Positions 396 to 36,218 of a DNA stretch of 36,218 bases are shown one piece after another. Numbering within the stretch: the first letter of the stretch is position 1; each line of letters starts with the position of its first letter. The translations under genes and the position numbers were made by a program. The notes below the pieces were generated by a model. That model had not been told where the DNA came from. It searched no databases and was given only the letters and a program-made list of their open reading frames with translations. This DNA is from Candidatus Equadaptatus faecalis (GTDB lineage Bacteria > Synergistota > Synergistia > Synergistales > Synergistaceae): contig JAGHTZ010000091.1 of the NCBI GenBank assembly GCA_018065065.1, positions 1-36,218 of the forward strand. Direction: 5' to 3'.

Positions 396-555
396 GGAAA
401 ATTTTTGCATTTCTTGCCTCTCTTTTAACAGCCAAATTCCCATTGCAAAAAATAAAATTACAAACCTAACGGCGCGTGAAACCGCGTCATAATGTTTGTT
501 GGCATAAATCAGTTTTCAGCGGCACAAATATATTTTGAAAGGAAGAGAAGAAAAA

Positions 556-3500
556 ATGAGAAGTTTCAAAAAAACAGCGGCAATCTTCATGCTTTTGACA
601 TTCATCTTCGCTACGGTCTCGCCTGCGATGGCGGCAAGCGGAATAGTCAGCGGAATAGTCAAAGGCAGCGGCTTTAGCAACATCGGCGACGAAAGAACCT
701 TTGCGGGCTACAACTGGAAGCTGTACGCTAAAGACGACACAGCAGACGCAAGCGGCAACAAATACGGTTACATAATCACGTCAGACGTAATGGAGAAAGC
801 GAAATCCGACGGCACGGGAAGCGTGACGTATCAGGTCTTCAGGACAGAGTTTACTGCGTCAGACGCCAAAAAATATTCAGCCTCGGAACTGCGCAAGAAA
901 GTCAGCGGCTACCAGGGCACAGACACTACGCAGGACACAAACAGTTATGAATATCAAATGAAGCATTACGGCGACGGTGTCAGTAGCCCGGCTGACATGA
1001 CATGGGAGGAAGCAAACGGCGGAACAGGCACGGGGGCTAAGAACTACATAGTGCAGCACGACATGACAAAAACAGGGACAGATGAAAGCCCGTACGGCGG
1101 CTGCGGAATGACGAAAACAGGGGATGTGTACAATTACCCTGATTATCTTTACATCCTTTCAACGGCGGAAGCGCAAGCGCTTGCAGGCGGAACTGATATA
1201 GAGAAGAACATCCTCAAAGCCTCTAATTACTGGTGGCTTCGTTCGCCCGGCGGCTACGACTATTATGCCGCTGACGTCAGCGACGACGGCATCGTCGGCG
1301 GCTACGGGGATGACGTGTCCTACGACTTCCGCGCCGCCCGTCCCGCTTTACAAATCAATCTAAAATCTCCAATCTTTCAATCTAATCTTTTCAAAACAGC
1401 CGCCGAAGGCGGCAAAAATTTGGTAACGGTAGGCGGAGGCTTCTCGCTTCCCGAAGTTACCGACCCAACAACTCTCACAAAACAGACAAAAGAAACGCTG
1501 ACGTTCACGACGCCCGGCTCTGTTTCCGCAACAAGCAGCACAACAGACGTTACCGAAACAGTTGACAGCCGCATAGCGGGCAGCGTTATAGACCTTACGT
1601 CTCCGCTTCTTACAAGCAAACAGCTTAAAGTTTCGTACAGCAACTTTGGAACAACAACTGCGCAAGACCACGTCGCGGCTGTCGTTTCAACGGGCAGCGG
1701 AAGCACGGAAACCTACGTCAACTACGCCAAACTTTCAACAGCCAATGAGGAAACAAACCTCGTTGTTGACACCTCAAAACTTGCCAACGGCACAGAGTAC
1801 AACCTCTACCTCTTTGCGGAAAAGATAGACGGCACGAACGAAACCCCCGGTGATACCACAACGCCTGTTGCCGACGCGGCGACGCGTTTGGTAAACGCGG
1901 GAACCTTCACGCTTGACAACACCTACACGAACAGCGGCATGCTTGGCAGTACGCACTCGTCAGAAGCCCTCACCGCCAGCCTCGGCGGAGACTTCAACCT
2001 CTCGTTTGAAGGCGGCGAATACAACACAGGCGTAACCGTCGGCGCAAATGACAACGGTACAATCACCGCCGACGCGGCAAGCGGCACAACGCTGACGGGA
2101 AAAATAACCGTTGAAGAAAACGCGACACTTGCCACGGCAAATAAATTTACGCTCAAAGGCGACAACACGGTTGACGGAACAGTAACAGGCGACGCCCTCA
2201 CAATAGCCGACGGCACAACAACCGTAGGCAGTACGGGAAGCATAGAAAACGTGCTTGAAATAACGGCAGGAAGCCTGACTGCAAACGCTGACAGCCTTAA
2301 AAACAACGTAAGCAACAGCGGTATCGTCAACTTCACAGGCGGCACGTTTGCAAAGAACTACACAAGCACAGGCACGACAAACTTCAAAGGCAAAACAATG
2401 TTCAGCGGTGCAGTCAGCTTGACAAACTCAACCCTTGGCTTCTACCTCGACAATTTCAGCAAAGGTGACACAATAATTGACTCAGCAAATACAATAAATG
2501 TAGCCGGTACTGAAATAAAACTCTATCAGGACATTGAAGGCAAAAAGGTAGAAGAAGAAGGCGACAAACTGACGCTCATAAACAACGCCGAAGGCTACGA
2601 AGGAACAAAAGAAAAACCGCTGAAAAAGAAAGTAATAAGCACAACGGGAATGCTCGACTACGAATACGACACGTGGCTTGAAAACAACGAACTCGTTATG
2701 GGAGTAAAAGGAGACACCCCTGGACCTGTTCCTGTAATCAAAGACAAAACAAAATCCTTCAGCGAAGCAAGACTCGGAGCGTCAGCAGCGCTCAACGCAG
2801 CCGGAGACTTTGTCGCGGGAGATGTGGCAGACAGTATGGACAACACGGAAGGCACTGCAAGTGCCGGAACGCAGAGCGCAGGCGGCTGGGGCAGCTTCGC
2901 TTCAATAGGCGGAAGCCGCGGACGCTACAACACAGGCAGCCACGTTGACCTTAACAGCTTCAACGTCGCGGCAGGGCTCTCAAAGAAAATCAAAGACAAC
3001 GTAACGCTTGGAATATTTGTAGAAGGCGGCAACGGACGCTACACGACGTACAACGAATTTGAAGACGGCGAAGTGAGAGCGGACGGCGACGTCAACTACT
3101 TCGGCGGCGGTGTTCTGGCGAAAATCAAAGGCAAAAAGACAGCCAAAGGACAGCTCCACGGAGAAGCGTCGTTCAGAGCGGGACGCATGAACAGCGACTA
3201 CAACAGCGAAACAGTTATCCCTGACGGAAACACCCGCTTTGACACAAGCAATTCGTACCTCGGAGCACACGCAGGACTTGGCTACAAATGGGCGCTCAAA
3301 AATGAGTCAAACATAGACACCTACGTCAAATACCTCTGGAGCAGACAGAACAGCGATACACCGACAATAGCCGGAAAACAGTTTGACCTTGACGCGATAA
3401 ACAGCCACAGACTTCGCGCGGGCTTCCGTTACAACGGCAAAGAAAACGAAAACGGCGTGAAATTCTTCGGCGGACTTGCCTACGAATACGAATTTGACGG

Positions 3501-3696
3501 AAAAGCCAAAGGACACATGGGCGAATACAGTCTGCTTGAACCTGACTTCAAAGGCGGAAGCGGAATGGCGGAACTCGGCATTAAGTATGACAAGGCAAAC
3601 AGCCCCTGGAAAGTGGAACTCGGACTGACAGGCTACACCGGCAAACGCGACAGCATAGGAGCGAACCTGAACGCTTGGTATGAGTTTGGAAAATAG
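556..3696 (+). CDS. Autotransporter with N-terminal WWLRSPG (DUF6273-type) domain
   Basis: This is a secreted outer-membrane protein of 1046 residues. ATG 556 is preferred over the upstream TTG at 535 because GAAAGGAAGAG just before 556 serves as ribosome binding site and residues 1-26 form a clear signal peptide (basic start, hydrophobic core, AMA cleavage). Residues about 28-270 form a domain with the motifs YWWLRSPGG (from about residue 225) and RAARPALQINL, typical of DUF6273, which has similarities to the C-type lectin/FGE-like fold. Residues about 290-770 are Thr/Asn/Gly-rich and repetitive (TITADAASGTTLTGKI), as expected of a beta-helix passenger. Residues about 780-1046 form an autotransporter-type beta-barrel (GWGSFASIGGSRGRY...LNAWYEFGK). 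The terminal GK after the aromatic residue is slightly atypical. The join between head and passenger carries a heptamer repeat. The ligand is unknown; adhesion or host interaction is likely. Confidence 0.85.
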   Translation: MRSFKKTAAIFMLLTFIFATVSPAMAASGIVSGIVKGSGFSNIGDERTFAGYNWKLYAKDDTADASGNKYGYIITSDVMEKAKSDGTGSVTYQVFRTEFTASDAKKYSASELRKKVSGYQGTDTTQDTNSYEYQMKHYGDGVSSPADMTWEEANGGTGTGAKNYIVQHDMTKTGTDESPYGGCGMTKTGDVYNYPDYLYILSTAEAQALAGGTDIEKNILKASNYWWLRSPGGYDYYAADVSDDGIVGGYGDDVSYDFRAARPALQINLKSPIFQSNLFKTAAEGGKNLVTVGGGFSLPEVTDPTTLTKQTKETLTFTTPGSVSATSSTTDVTETVDSRIAGSVIDLTSPLLTSKQLKVSYSNFGTTTAQDHVAAVVSTGSGSTETYVNYAKLSTANEETNLVVDTSKLANGTEYNLYLFAEKIDGTNETPGDTTTPVADAATRLVNAGTFTLDNTYTNSGMLGSTHSSEALTASLGGDFNLSFEGGEYNTGVTVGANDNGTITADAASGTTLTGKITVEENATLATANKFTLKGDNTVDGTVTGDALTIADGTTTVGSTGSIENVLEITAGSLTANADSLKNNVSNSGIVNFTGGTFAKNYTSTGTTNFKGKTMFSGAVSLTNSTLGFYLDNFSKGDTIIDSANTINVAGTEIKLYQDIEGKKVEEEGDKLTLINNAEGYEGTKEKPLKKKVISTTGMLDYEYDTWLENNELVMGVKGDTPGPVPVIKDKTKSFSEARLGASAALNAAGDFVAGDVADSMDNTEGTASAGTQSAGGWGSFASIGGSRGRYNTGSHVDLNSFNVAAGLSKKIKDNVTLGIFVEGGNGRYTTYNEFEDGEVRADGDVNYFGGGVLAKIKGKKTAKGQLHGEASFRAGRMNSDYNSETVIPDGNTRFDTSNSYLGAHAGLGYKWALKNESNIDTYVKYLWSRQNSDTPTIAGKQFDLDAINSHRLRAGFRYNGKENENGVKFFGGLAYEYEFDGKAKGHMGEYSLLEPDFKGGSGMAELGIKYDKANSPWKVELGLTGYTGKRDSIGANLNAWYEFGK
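1357..1389 (+). repeat. AATCT repeat array inside the autotransporter gene
   Basis: AATCT occurs five times at 1357, 1364, 1371, 1379 and 1384. The first three are exactly 7 bp apart (AATCTAA, AATCTCC, AATCTTT). The array encodes the linker KSPIFQSNLF just after the RAARPAL motif that closes the N-terminal domain, and it is far more AT-rich than the flanking codons. Confidence 0.6.
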
Positions 3697-3704
3697 GGCA
3701 GCGA

Positions 3705-3767
3705 TAAGCGGTAAGCATTAAGCTGGAAGCTAAAGGCTATAGGCTAAAAGCACTAAGCGAACAGTAT
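3705..3767 (+). repeat. Degenerate heptamer array, nine units
   Basis: The units follow in exact 7-bp register: TAAGCGG, TAAGCAT, TAAGCTG, GAAGCTA, AAGGCTA, TAGGCTA, AAAGCAC, TAAGCGA, ACAGTAT. Positions 2-5 (AAGC) are conserved and positions 1, 6 and 7 vary. It begins a few bases after the autotransporter stop codon and is followed by two ATGTAACGAA units and the terminator. Confidence 0.8.
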
Positions 3768-16987: not shown

Positions 16988-17013
16988 TTGCTAAACTTAA
17001 TATTGCAATTAAA

Positions 17014-17171
17014 GGATAGAGGCGCAGTTGTCAAGAGTAGCACCGGCGGAACAGATGCCGCAAAATCGTTGCCGGTGCGAAAGGGGCTGCTGCCGAAGGC
17101 GGGAAGCTGCGAACCCTGCCCGGGCAATCGGACAATATCCGTTTGACTGTCGCTTATGCGGAGAGCTATGG
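17014..17171 (+). promoter_or_regulatory. Lysine riboswitch (L box)
   Basis: The conserved core elements appear in order: GATAGAGGCGC, AAGAGTAGC, a GCACCGGC stem with its partner GCCGGTGC, GAAAGGGGCTGC, GCCGAAGG, GGGCAATCGGAC, then GACTGTCGCTTATGCGGAGAGCTAT. The ends ATAG and CTAT close P1. This is the L-box aptamer, which binds lysine and switches off lysine genes. Downstream, GATTAA (17171-17176) can pair with TTAATC (17213-17218) as an antiterminator that competes with the terminator at 17219-17249. Confidence 0.93.
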
Positions 17172-17218
17172 ATTAATTGAACCCATGAATGCCTGACGGC
17201 GTTCGCTTTTGGTTAATC

Positions 17219-18174: not shown

Positions 18175-18912
18175 ATGAAAATTATTATTCACGGCTATAC
18201 GGGCAGAATGGGGCAGATGCTTGTTTCGCTTTCGGAGCGCGAAAACAGCGCTTTTGAAGTTGCGTCCAAAGTAAGCCCGGACTGCCCTTCTGAAACAGAA
18301 AACTGTTATACGGAGCTTGACCATTTCACCGGTGAGGCAGACTGCATAATAGACTTTTCAAACCACGCTGCGGCAAAAACTTTAACGGACTATGCTGTAA
18401 AGCGCGGTATTCCGCTGGTTGTGGCAACTACCGGACATAATGAAAGCGAGCTTGAAGCGATAAAACGCGCGGCGGAGCACGTCCCTGTTTTCTTCTCTGC
18501 GAACATGTCCGTCGGTGTAGCCCTTCTTGCAAATTTGGCAAAAGAGGCTGCGTCTGCTTTCCCTGACGCCGATATTGAAATAATTGAAACGCACCACAAC
18601 CAGAAGCTTGACGTTCCGAGCGGAACCGCTTTGCTACTGGCGCGAAAAATTAAAGAGGCGCGAAGCGGCGCGGAAATACTTGTCGGCCGCCATGAAAACG
18701 GAAAACGCGGCAAAGAGATTGGAATACATTCCGTCCGTCTCGGAAACGAAACCGGAAGGCACACAATAATTATCTCTGCTGGAAGCGAAACAATTACTCT
18801 GGAACACAAGGCGGAAAACAGAATGTTGTTTGCCGAAGGAGCGGTCGCGGCTGCTAAATTTATCTGCGGCAAAAAAGCAGGCTTCTATACGATGGAAGAT
18901 ATCATAGGGTAA
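18175..18912 (+). CDS. dapB: 4-hydroxy-tetrahydrodipicolinate reductase
   Basis: A 245-residue enzyme that reduces the DapA product with NAD(P)H. It has the Rossmann motif HGYTGRMGQ (residues 6-14), ATTGHN, FSANMSVGV, and the catalytic signature ETHHNQKLDVPSGTA with His140-His141 and Lys144. The ATG begins one base after the dapA stop, so the genes are translationally linked. Slightly shorter than the E. coli enzyme but complete. Confidence 0.96.
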   Translation: MKIIIHGYTGRMGQMLVSLSERENSAFEVASKVSPDCPSETENCYTELDHFTGEADCIIDFSNHAAAKTLTDYAVKRGIPLVVATTGHNESELEAIKRAAEHVPVFFSANMSVGVALLANLAKEAASAFPDADIEIIETHHNQKLDVPSGTALLLARKIKEARSGAEILVGRHENGKRGKEIGIHSVRLGNETGRHTIIISAGSETITLEHKAENRMLFAEGAVAAAKFICGKKAGFYTMEDIIG

Positions 18913-18919
18913 AAAATCG

Positions 18920-18974
18920 AATTACCAATGACCAAGTACCAATTACCGATTAAGGTGCCGGCATAAATGCCGGC
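18920..18974 (+). repeat. ACC-type heptamer array plus palindrome between dapB and lysC
   Basis: AATTACC, AATGACC, AAGTACC and AATTACC run in exact 7-bp register at 18920-18947, followed by GATTAAG. Then GCCGGCAT (18957-18964) and ATGCCGGC (18967-18974) form a perfect hairpin with a 2-base loop and no U-tract. The array resembles the other heptamer arrays in period but has ACC instead of AGC. Confidence 0.7.
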
Positions 18975-32132: not shown

Positions 32133-32209
32133 TAAGCTGTAAGCTGCAAGCTGTAAGCCATAAGCAAAAAGCAATAAGCGGTAAGCTATAAGCTACAAGC
32201 TGCAAGCAA
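32133..32209 (+). repeat. Degenerate heptamer array, 11 perfect NAAGCNN units
   Basis: Eleven consecutive 7-bp units all fit NAAGCNN: TAAGCTG, TAAGCTG, CAAGCTG, TAAGCCA, TAAGCAA, AAAGCAA, TAAGCGG, TAAGCTA, TAAGCTA, CAAGCTG, CAAGCAA. Not one base is inserted or lost, while positions 1, 6 and 7 vary freely. The 7-bp period rules out a coding repeat. It lies between the yerC-like gene and proS, just before the hairpin element at 32221. Confidence 0.95.
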
Positions 32210-32350: not shown

Positions 32351-32426
32351 GAAGCATTAAGCCAAAAGCCTTAAAGGTTTTAAAGCTTAAAGCTTAACGC
32401 TTACAGCTAACCAAGTGCTAAGTGCT
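32351..32426 (+). repeat. Heptamer array immediately upstream of proS
   Basis: GAAGCAT, TAAGCCA and AAAGCCT are in 7-bp register. After a short disrupted stretch the array continues with TAAAGCT, TAAAGCT, TAACGCT, TACAGCT (32381-32408) and AAGTGCT, AAGTGCT (32413-32426). It reaches to within about 50 bases of the proS start and probably abuts the promoter (TTAAAAT near 32440). Confidence 0.85.
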
Positions 32427-32473
32427 GAATTATGTGTTAAAATATCACGCGTACCTGATTGGAGGAGTTTCTG

Positions 32474-34000: not shown

Positions 34001-34046
34001 GGTTCTAACCCAAATGAAGGCTTGCAGAGCAAGCCCACCACAATTG

Positions 34047-34161
34047 GTAGTCGGTAATTTGTACTTGGTAATTTGTTTTTTATAATTGTTTCTTATAGTA
34101 ATTGTTTCTTATAGTCATTGATTTTTTGGGTAATTGCTTTTTATAGTCATTGTTTTTTATA
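34047..34161 (+). repeat. GGTAATT heptamers followed by a 16-bp tandem repeat
   Basis: GGTAGTC, GGTAATT, TGTACTT and GGTAATT run at 7-bp intervals from 34047. After a T-rich step, four 16-bp units follow at 34089-34152: TTTCTTATAGTAATTG, TTTCTTATAGTCATTG, ATTTTTTGGGTAATTG, CTTTTTATAGTCATTG, with partial units on each side. The array ends just before the ribosome binding site of the NSS gene, so copy-number change would alter its promoter or leader. A small hairpin CTTGC-AGA-GCAAG lies at 34021-34033. Confidence 0.8.
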
Positions 34162-34181: not shown

Positions 34182-35558
34182 ATGGAGAACAAAAGAGAAA
34201 AACTTGGCAGCCGGTTAGGCTTTATATTTCTGTCAGCAGGCTGTGCAATAGGGCTCGGTAACGTATGGCGTTTCCCGTTCATTACGGGGCAGTACGGCGG
34301 GGCAGCCTTTGTGCTTGTTTACATACTTTTCTTGATCGTTCTCGGACTTCAGATAATGACTATGGAATTTTCAGTCGGCAGAGCGTCGGGACAAAGCAGT
34401 ATAAACTCCTTCAAACGGCTTGAACCTGAAGGTACAAAATGGCATCTCAACGGAATTATGGGCTTTTTGGGAAACATTGTACTTATGATGTTCTACACGA
34501 CGGTAACAGGGTGGATGCTTGCCTATTTCTGGTACAGTCTCAGCGGAAAACTTTGCGTTCTGACACCTGACGAAATAGGACAGACCTTCGGAGCCCTGCT
34601 TTCAAATCCGGCGTCGCTTATTTTCTGGATGCTGCTCTCGGTTGCGGCAGGCACCCTGATATGCTTCTCGGGACTGCAAAAAGGTGTTGAAAACGTAACA
34701 AAAATTATGATGATTGCGCTTCTTGTTTTGGTTCTGTCGCTTGCCCTGCGTTCTGTCACGCTTGACGGGGCTTCAAAGGGACTTGAATTTTACATGAAAC
34801 CCGATTTCGGGAAGCTTGTTGAACACGGGCTTTGGACAAGTATATACGCGGCTCTCGGACAGGCATTCTTTACGTTGAGCCTCGGAATAGGCGCGCTTGC
34901 CATTTTCGGCAGTTACATCGGCAAAGAACGAACGCTTATGGGAGAAGCTGCCTGCGTCATCGCGCTTGACACCTTTGTTGCTCTTATGTCAGGTTTCATA
35001 ATCTTTCCCTCCTGCTTTGCCTACGGAGTAGATGCAGGGGCAGGTCCCGGCTTGATTTTTGTGTCGCTTCCCGTAATGTTCAACCACATGACAGGCGGAA
35101 GATTTTGGGGCACCCTGTTCTTTCTCCTTATGAGTTTCGCGGCAATGTCAACGGTGATAGCGGTATTTGAAACAATACTTGCAAACGCCATAGACACGCG
35201 CGGATGGAGCAGGCAGAGAGCTGCTTTTACCACCGGTTTGCTCATCGCGGTTCTTTCTGTTCCGTGCTGTCTCGGATTTAACCTTTGGGCAGACTTTCAG
35301 CCGCTCGGCAAAGGAACGTGCGTGCTTGATCTGGAAGATTTTATAGTCAGCAACAACCTGCTTCCGATTGGTTCTCTGTTCTATCTTTTCTTCTGCACGA
35401 GAAAAAACGGCTGGGGCTGGGATAACTTTATAAAAGAAGTCAACACCGGCAGAGGCATTAAATTCCCTGTCTGTGTCCGTTGGTACGTAACCTACATAAT
35501 ACCCGTCATAATGACGGTAGTTATTGTCTGGGGCTACATAGACAAATTTATGAAATAA
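34182..35558 (+). CDS. Sodium-dependent NSS-family amino-acid symporter
   Basis: A 458-residue transporter of the SNF/NSS family (LeuT fold). The first helix carries AGCAIGLGNVWRFPF, whose unwound centre binds Na+ and the substrate amino group. EFSVGRASGQS and TLSLGIGALAIFGSY (helix 6) are also typical, and the total of 11 to 12 helices with a short C terminus matches bacterial members such as MhsT and TnaT. It imports an amino acid with Na+, which could use the gradient made by the methylmalonyl-CoA decarboxylase. ATG 34182 follows CCGGAGGT (34167-34174). Confidence 0.92.
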   Translation: MENKREKLGSRLGFIFLSAGCAIGLGNVWRFPFITGQYGGAAFVLVYILFLIVLGLQIMTMEFSVGRASGQSSINSFKRLEPEGTKWHLNGIMGFLGNIVLMMFYTTVTGWMLAYFWYSLSGKLCVLTPDEIGQTFGALLSNPASLIFWMLLSVAAGTLICFSGLQKGVENVTKIMMIALLVLVLSLALRSVTLDGASKGLEFYMKPDFGKLVEHGLWTSIYAALGQAFFTLSLGIGALAIFGSYIGKERTLMGEAACVIALDTFVALMSGFIIFPSCFAYGVDAGAGPGLIFVSLPVMFNHMTGGRFWGTLFFLLMSFAAMSTVIAVFETILANAIDTRGWSRQRAAFTTGLLIAVLSVPCCLGFNLWADFQPLGKGTCVLDLEDFIVSNNLLPIGSLFYLFFCTRKNGWGWDNFIKEVNTGRGIKFPVCVRWYVTYIIPVIMTVVIVWGYIDKFMK

Positions 35559-35581
35559 CCTCTTACAGAAAGATAATGTAA

Positions 35582-35644
35582 AGTGCAAAATGCAAAATGC
35601 ATAATGCATAATGCAAAGTGCTAAATGAAAAATTCAAAATGAAA
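35582..35644 (+). repeat. Heptamer array of AATGCNN type, nine units
   Basis: AGTGCAA, AATGCAA, AATGCAT, AATGCAT, AATGCAA, AGTGCTA, AATGAAA, AATTCAA and AATGAAA follow in perfect 7-bp register, starting 24 bases after the NSS stop codon. Units of AGTGCTA type also occur inside the AAGC-type arrays at 32413 and 35849, which links the two classes. Confidence 0.9.
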
Positions 35645-35662
35645 AACAAAAAAAACACCGTC

Positions 35663-35765: not shown

Positions 35766-35813
35766 AATTTTTAATTTGCCCAAAATTGCTCTTGGGTACG
35801 GTAAACATAGCCA

Positions 35814-35976
35814 TAAGCTAAAAGCTAAAAGCTGCAAGCAAAAAGCTAAGTGCTAAGTGCGCAGTTAAAGGAGCTACATGCTTCCAGCTTACCGCTTAAA
35901 GCTGTGCCTTTTGCCACATGCCTTTTGCTTTTTGCATATAGCATATAGCCTGTAGCGTATAGCGTTTGGCGCTTTC
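35814..35976. repeat. Two heptamer arrays in opposite orientation
   Basis: 35814-35869 reads TAAGCTA, AAAGCTA, AAAGCTG, CAAGCAA, AAAGCTA, AGTGCTA, AGTGCGC, AGTTAAA on the plus strand. 35885-35971 has the same period on the minus strand, with units such as TAAGCTG, TAAGCGG, AAAAGGC, TATATGC, TATATGC, TACAGGC, TATACGC. About 15 bases separate them, so the arrays converge. The GC-rich unidentified segment starts where the second array ends. Confidence 0.85.
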
Positions 35977-36218
35977 GCGCCACTCCGGATTACTTCCTAC
36001 TGGGCTGGATACCGATGTTGCATGGTACCGTCCGTTCGTTTTCTGTCCGAAGCTTGCAGGCTCCTTGCTCTGCCTGCCTCCTCCCGAAAGCATCGGCCTC
36101 GTGTCTCAGCCCTGAAACCCGACCGCTTCGCGTGCCGTTACCGAAGTGTTACAGAGCTTTAGCTGAAAAGCAACGGGCTTACCTCCGTTTGGAGCCGCAT
36201 CACGTAATGCGTGAGAGA
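35969..36218. other. Unidentified GC-rich, hairpin-rich segment, cut by the window edge
   Basis: No credible gene covers this stretch, and its composition differs sharply from the AT-rich repeats before it. A nested stem can form: GGGCTG (36002-36007) with CAGCCC (36107-36112), and CCGATG (36012-36017) with CATCGG (36091-36096), enclosing a GCAGGC/GCCTGC hairpin (36056-36077). Smaller hairpins are GGCGC-TTTC-GCGCC (35969-35982), CTCC-GTTT-GGAG (36183-36194) and CGCAT/ATGCG (36196-36211). This suggests a structured RNA or a repeat-associated element. I compared it by memory with RNase P, tmRNA, 6S, SRP and common riboswitches and saw no match. Strand and extent are unknown. Confidence 0.4.

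Follow-up and report, generated by a model that had tools for sequence, protein, structure and literature searches.

Introduction

Tandem heptanucleotides, known as STRR, occur at many loci in the genomes of heterocystous cyanobacteria. According to the summary given by later authors, several kinds coexist per genome, with three in Calothrix (cited in PMC4692102). Heptamer abundance has been reported since 2007, without a tested reason. As quoted in subsequent papers, Mrazek found that, among long simple repeats, heptamers are the most frequent in many bacteria (PMC4679880) and hypothesized that 7 nt is the polymerase contact length (PMC4679880, PMC4692102). The heterogeneous heptamers (GGGANTN)n described in Xanthomonas by Rehm and colleagues combine fixed and free positions and form about 185 arrays per genome, mostly intergenic and close to the upstream gene's 3' end, with 70-75 convergent pairs in each genome (PMC4692102). 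Long heptamer repeats were found at different genes in two relatives, a turnover between species, and the Nostoc heptamer, GGGGAYT, belongs to the G-rich heterogeneous type (PMC4692102). The TAACTGA repeats reported by MacGregor in Beggiatoaceae have an invariant unit, are 2-6 units long and in most cases immediately precede start codons, related heptamers being rare (PMC4679880). Finally, Omega/ParB of plasmid pSM19035 binds 7-10 unspaced 7-bp parS repeats in either orientation; these heptads (WATCACW) are partly degenerate, occupy a few plasmid sites and have one consensus and a known binder (PMC9499535).

Arrays of this kind lie at the ends of contigs and are able to insert loops into essential proteins, so that annotators and evolutionary geneticists often meet them without a name. 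Here, we analyze a window of 36,218 nucleotides, contig C91 of the genome (MAG) of a Synergistaceae gut bacterium, 1.6 Mb in 100 contigs, whose proS shares 97% identity with the proS of a Synergistaceae MAG (L001).

Heptad arrays of the window

The array upstream of proS, at 32133-32209, consists of exactly eleven 7-bp units, with AAGC in 11/11 of them and no indel, as the initial annotation had claimed. Its 55 matches at lag 7 (lags 5, 6, 8, and 9 give 9-15) were reached by none of 20,000 first-order Markov sequences. The six further arrays of the same period announced by the annotation are all present in their places as well, each with P <= 1e-4 (Table 1), and two of them had to be redrawn. 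The period of 32351-32426 was confirmed, but what had been taken for one array is composed of AAGC heptads (32351-32371), a 15-bp spacer, inverted AAGC heptads (about 32387-32408) and two TAAGTGC-type units. Similarly, 35885-35971 keeps the period, but only a short part is inverted AAGC, followed by other heptad types in the same phase; 35809-35971 is one head-to-head pair rather than single arrays. No Rfam family matched at the arrays.

Table 1. Heptad features of the window, with positions counted from its first letter.
Feature	Coordinates	Strand	Remarks
Main array, 11 heptads NAAGCNN	32133..32209	+	core AAGC invariant; upstream of proS
Head-to-head pair	32351..32408	+	AAGC array, 15-bp spacer CTTAAAGGTTTTAAA, inverted GCTTNNN array
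TAAGTGC-type heptads, n = 2, right edge	32415..32428	+	GTGC/GCGC heptads at the same site in the congener
NNNAAGC array	3700..3760	+	begins 4 bp past the stop codon of ORF 535-3696; ends of paralogous genes bear different arrays or lack one
AATTACC/AATGACC heptad array	18918..18952	+	6 bp past the stop codon at 18912
Short AATTGGT/AATTTGT-type heptads (reverse strand ACCAATT)	34042..34087	+	
AAAATGC/AAAGTGC/AAAATGA heptad array	35573..35657	+	15 bp past the stop codon at 35558
NNNAAGC heptads, then TAAGTGC heptads, in phase	35809..35865	+	left arm of head-to-head pair
Inverted AAGC heptads, then TGCCTTT/TGCATAT/AGCGTAT-type, same register	35885..35971	-	right arm of head-to-head pair

Extent in the genome

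Period-7 arrays are in clear excess outside the window. The scan covered 1.59 Mb of the 1.6-Mb genome and retained 42-bp windows with at least 24 lag-7 matches: 182 intergenic ones were found, compared to 3.0 in dinucleotide shuffles, and the same test at lags 8 to 13 gave 9 to 25. They merge into 143 arrays with at least eight cores, including NNNAAGC, TAAGTGC, AAARTGM, and ACNAATK, all at a 7-bp step. The pattern AAGC(N3AAGC)x3 occurs 81+88 times, vs. 1+1 for the reversed control. Autocorrelation at lag 7 reaches 0.289 in intergenic DNA, vs. about 0.265 at neighbouring lags, and peaks at lags 7 and 14 are present in intergenic DNA and absent in coding DNA. When the core switches inside an array, the register is kept, as from TGTAAGC to TAAGTGC at C32:718-791. 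Since arrays recur in independently assembled genomes and phage contigs, they are no artefact of this one assembly, a concern that the annotation had raised.

Other elements were noted besides these arrays. Lag 16 was also high in the scan (61 windows, about 2 expected) due to a separate 16-bp family, represented in the window by a degenerate tandem array (GTAATTGTTTTTTATA) at 34068-34161; its arrays often adjoin palindromic TCTGCGG...CGCAGA modules. Positions 35982-36218 hold the start of an element some 340 bp long (CTCCGGATTACTTCCTACTGGG...), which runs past the contig end and recurs in about 20 partial copies, at many contig ends; the copies searched gave no Rfam match, and it looks like a structured RNA or a mobile element. 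The window also encodes a lysine riboswitch aptamer (17009-17176, 77 bits).

Variation of the units

Triplet statistics were drawn from 463 units in 98 AAGC runs. The vocabulary of the variable triplets is limited: 13 of the 64 triplets make up about 80% of the units (the commonest being TAT, GGT, ATT, TGT, TTT, AAT, TGC, and a few others), 25/64 never occur, and C stands at position 2 in only 6/463 units. This rules out random untemplated triplets. Adjacent units share an identical triplet in 8.8% of cases, vs. a background of 5.8%, so that the near-identical neighbouring units typical of slippage-derived simple sequence repeats are missing. In a set of 55 longer arrays, units in phase match at 0.71 over a distance of one unit, a value inflated because these arrays were chosen on lag 7, and still at 0.43 over eight units, with 0.26-0.30 off phase. 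Phase thus outlasts sequence and, as the annotation had argued, recent slippage of identical copies fits poorly.

Rates per column were obtained from 17 non-redundant pairs of homologous array copies with flanks less than 15% diverged. Cores diverge by 2.6%, flanks by 7.0% and the variable triplets by 20.6%; the first two values are biased low, since the core served to detect the arrays and similarity to detect the flanks. Free positions hence diverge about three times faster than flanks, and cores more slowly. Triplets are also transversion-rich, with a transition to transversion ratio of 13:35 vs. 118:73 in flanks. Half of the differing units (14/28) differ at two or three bases, when by our estimate about one such unit would be expected from 7% point divergence, which indicates that whole units are replaced. 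Replacement from within the same array showed no excess (10 vs. 8.7).

These rates bear on the possibility that ordinary slippage occurred long ago and was followed by random decay. Some arrays do exhibit higher-order repeats of three units (C64:22145) or identical units in a row (C13), but decay would hit all seven columns, which is contradicted by the column-specific rates, and would hardly raise transversions to 35/48 at free positions compared to 73/191 in flanks. We therefore regard this scenario as very improbable.

Alternatively, a reverse transcriptase or a telomerase-like enzyme might write the units from a template, whose locked register would explain the fixed step, and the genome indeed encodes a DRT4-type defence reverse transcriptase (G000:C34:18845-20444). 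However, no RVT_1 match was found in the array-bearing genomes G101, G102, G103, and G107, DRT4 gave weak matches in other places, and many cores would need many templates. A reverse transcriptase is thus rejected as a required writer, and templated writing of any such kind appears extremely unlikely.

The annotation further proposed a 7-bp phase rule, due to selection or to copying with a 7-base step. Such a rule, whether mechanistic or selective, stays plausible because at least eight cores here and many elsewhere all keep 7 bp. The idea that TAAGCNN units serve to place stops in all three frames fared worse: 0.89 strands per array carry such stops, vs. 0.80 (sd 0.05) after column permutation, a weak signal for a selected property, and some cores elsewhere (e.g., TCCTG) carry no stop codon.

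Pairing, position at genes and dispersal

Among neighbouring AAGC arrays within 250 bp, 24 pairs are facing (+-) and a single one points outward (-+). In 28 cases an array starts no more than 15 bp from a stop codon, vs. 10.4 expected, and arrays at 5' gene ends number 7, vs. 9.3 expected; the median distances of an array to its two neighbouring genes do not differ. Arrays of this genome do not clearly favour any of the three kinds of gap (tandem, divergent or convergent), and the gene ends of one paralogous family carry NNNAAGC arrays, GTAGNNN arrays or no array.

The free bases of the two arms of a pair match at chance level (0.263 vs. 0.286). Since these variable bases are non-complementary, the arms are neither fold-back copies nor perfect hairpins; selected hairpins were also rejected, as the pair of the window folds no better than shuffles (z = -1.15 as DNA, -0.86 as RNA).

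Head-to-head arms resemble terminal inverted repeats, and many arrays lie within homologous dispersed modules, which suggests that arrays could be the ends or inner parts of non-autonomous mobile elements (MITE- or REP-like) and spread with them. Among all arrays, shared phrases of 4-5 units indeed exceed those of shuffles. On the contrary, arrays without homologous flanks share no long phrases: at such loci, 3- or 4-unit phrases show no excess, so that arrays are not simple copies of one element, and copying between distant arrays in tracts of at least 3 units was discarded on the same lack of excess. In addition, phage arrays have unique spacers, and a profile search of the genome for the RAYT transposase (Y1_Tnp, PF01797) gave no match while its controls matched, which eliminates RAYT-driven REP elements. 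A mobile origin of the arrays thus seems unlikely.

Turnover against the congener

Gain and loss of arrays at orthologous gaps, a comparison proposed by the annotation, could be followed in a congener with 91% nucleotide identity over the proS locus of the window. Its gaps are without the arrays or have different units. In the gap upstream of proS, the eleven-unit array is replaced by different heptads, which lie at the same two borders: AATAAGTGC AGAGTGC AGAGAGC at one and AGAAGTGC AAGGTGC GAAGCGC at the other, and the heptads at 34042..34087 are missing from a gap of 58 bp. Among 40 comparable gaps, two hold arrays in this genome (G000) and 0/2 are kept in the congener, whose sample amounts to 158 kb in short contigs that under-represent repeats. 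Both sides of the congener gaps at array sites are too diverged to define a target-site duplication. At three places (C41, C44, and the proS site), there are suggestive signs that the core may have been taken from the flank.

Other phyla, phages and purD

Period-7 arrays with other cores are found at the proS loci of Chloroflexota, Patescibacteria, Atribacteria, and a Thermovirgaceae genome, several of them as head-to-head pairs, and the degenerate heptad build with other cores extends to Chloroflexota, Acidobacteriota, and uncultivated phages. Heterogeneous TCANCNN x5 arrays occur in 26/201 genomes of one phylum (that of L064), with counts of up to 278 vs. 0 for the reversed control. TCAGCNN x5 was detected in 20/199 genomes of a different phylum (that of L049), where many matches are perfect repeats and therefore only part are of the degenerate kind. 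Some Chloroflexota arrays drift in register from TACTACC-like to TATCACC-like units. One Chloroflexota array is translated in frame inside PurD (L279:1381-2280), forming an extra loop after APGNAGT whose residues are absent from the best-matching solved PurD structure. Near 7-bp arrays of L289, one seems to run at 8 bp (TCAGGCAA, TCAGGCGA), so that the step may not always be 7.

In IMG/VR phage contigs, TCAGC arrays face each other 45 times and turn away 3 times, with a median spacer of 19 bp. They fill many gaps of contigs encoding terminase and portal; in L447, L446, and L455, many gene junctions hold facing arrays. The NNCAAGC arrays of phage contigs L292-L371 have one orientation per neighbourhood, hence facing pairs are not universal. 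When a synthetic TCAGC array was compared by BLAST with named phages and plasmids, no match was obtained, a result of little weight given how short and simple a query of this kind is.

In some phage contigs most gaps are occupied by arrays, as might be expected of binding platforms, the main rival explanation. A protein or an RNA would contact the core every 7 bp, the core being selected and the two or three uncontacted bases left free. This would account for the fixed core, the free positions, the exact pitch, the several units and both orientations, as well as for independent loci sharing a core and not phrases, and Omega/ParB of pSM19035 is a precedent of the same pitch. We nevertheless consider binding platforms rather unlikely, as this genome alone would require eight or more factors of one pitch, one for each core, the core drifts along some arrays, arrays occur inside coding sequence (PurD), and no gene-context preference is apparent; a search for an Omega homologue was without match, but its controls gave none either.

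Anchored realignment as a tentative explanation

The explanation that we favour, with somewhat less than even confidence, is that the arrays are a widespread class grown in place by mismatch-tolerant realignment with a 7-nt step, anchored on the core. Tandem DNA, mostly non-coding, would grow and turn over where it stands, for the most part at 3' gene borders, as the growing strand slips or realigns 7 nt at a time. Only the four or five core bases would have to pair for the growing end to realign, which would keep the core fixed and the register locked. Mismatches at the remaining two or three positions would be tolerated, units being gained, lost or replaced, and some arrays may later have spread as passengers of dispersed intergenic repeat modules. 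We infer this mechanism, the anchor role of the core and the absence of a dedicated function from the patterns described above.

At least eight unrelated cores here, and others in other phyla, share the 7-bp step, which a single binding factor would not give, and the in-frame PurD array implies that arrays can arise where no binding site is expected. The decay of the match with unit distance while phase holds, the in-register drift of Chloroflexota units, the contrast in rates between free positions, flanks and cores, the replacement of whole units, the lack of shared phrases at loci without common flanks, the turnover in congener gaps, the lack of gene-orientation preference, and the polymerase-contact hypothesis of Mrazek also point to realignment. 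On the contrary, plain slippage predicts alike neighbouring units and these are barely alike; mismatch tolerance does not explain the limited vocabulary; head-to-head arms with the same core and unrelated free bases are not predicted by slippage; and the slowness of the core is partly ascertained, since arrays were found by it. Neither realignment nor heptad-binding factors account for the restricted set of triplets or for arrays that face each other.

Recent slippage of identical units, uniform decay, fold-back copying and untemplated addition at random are all excluded by the data, as is any need for a reverse transcriptase; this leaves anchored realignment at a 7-nt step, which we favour, and heptad-binding factors. 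More broadly, we would cautiously suggest an as yet undescribed general process, acting at gene borders in bacterial phyla and phages, that could lay down or maintain 7-nt-step arrays with a genome-specific core and freely redraw the other bases, whether polymerases realign in a mode of their own or a family of factors reads heptads. Column-specific rates, independent cores at one pitch, and phages turn the matter into a testable question, that of DNA synthesis vs. repeat-reading factors.

Comparison with known systems

The annotation considered the class undescribed, which does not hold: the (GGGANTN)n arrays of Xanthomonas share the architecture (PMC4692102). The likeness extends to the 7-nt unit with fixed and free positions (here NNNAAGC, AAARTGM, and others), to convergent pairs (24 vs. 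1, and 45 vs. 3 in phage contigs) and to the location near the upstream 3' end, which is seen here in the stop-codon counts, though median distances do not differ. Xanthomonas has one core, a G-run with quadruplex potential, whereas AAGC, ATGC, and GTGC here have no G-run, and at least eight cores coexist in one genome, with the same build in other phyla and phages. Rates per column were moreover measured here.

The TAACTGA repeats similarly have a 7-nt unit and many intergenic sets per genome, but TAACTGA is not among the consensus units of the arrays reported here, which vary. STRR also are tandem heptanucleotides at many loci with several kinds per genome. The parS repeats are equally unspaced, partly degenerate and found in either orientation, but the WATCACW consensus is in no array of this genome. 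Simple sequence repeats of phase variation share tandem short units whose length is no multiple of three; their units are identical and lie in or before switch genes, whereas ours differ and adjoin genes of all kinds. A literature search, mostly outside subscription journals, retrieved no paper that treats the class across many cores, reports its column-specific rates or describes it in phages. What is new here is a much broader range of heterogeneous heptamer arrays than the Xanthomonas type.
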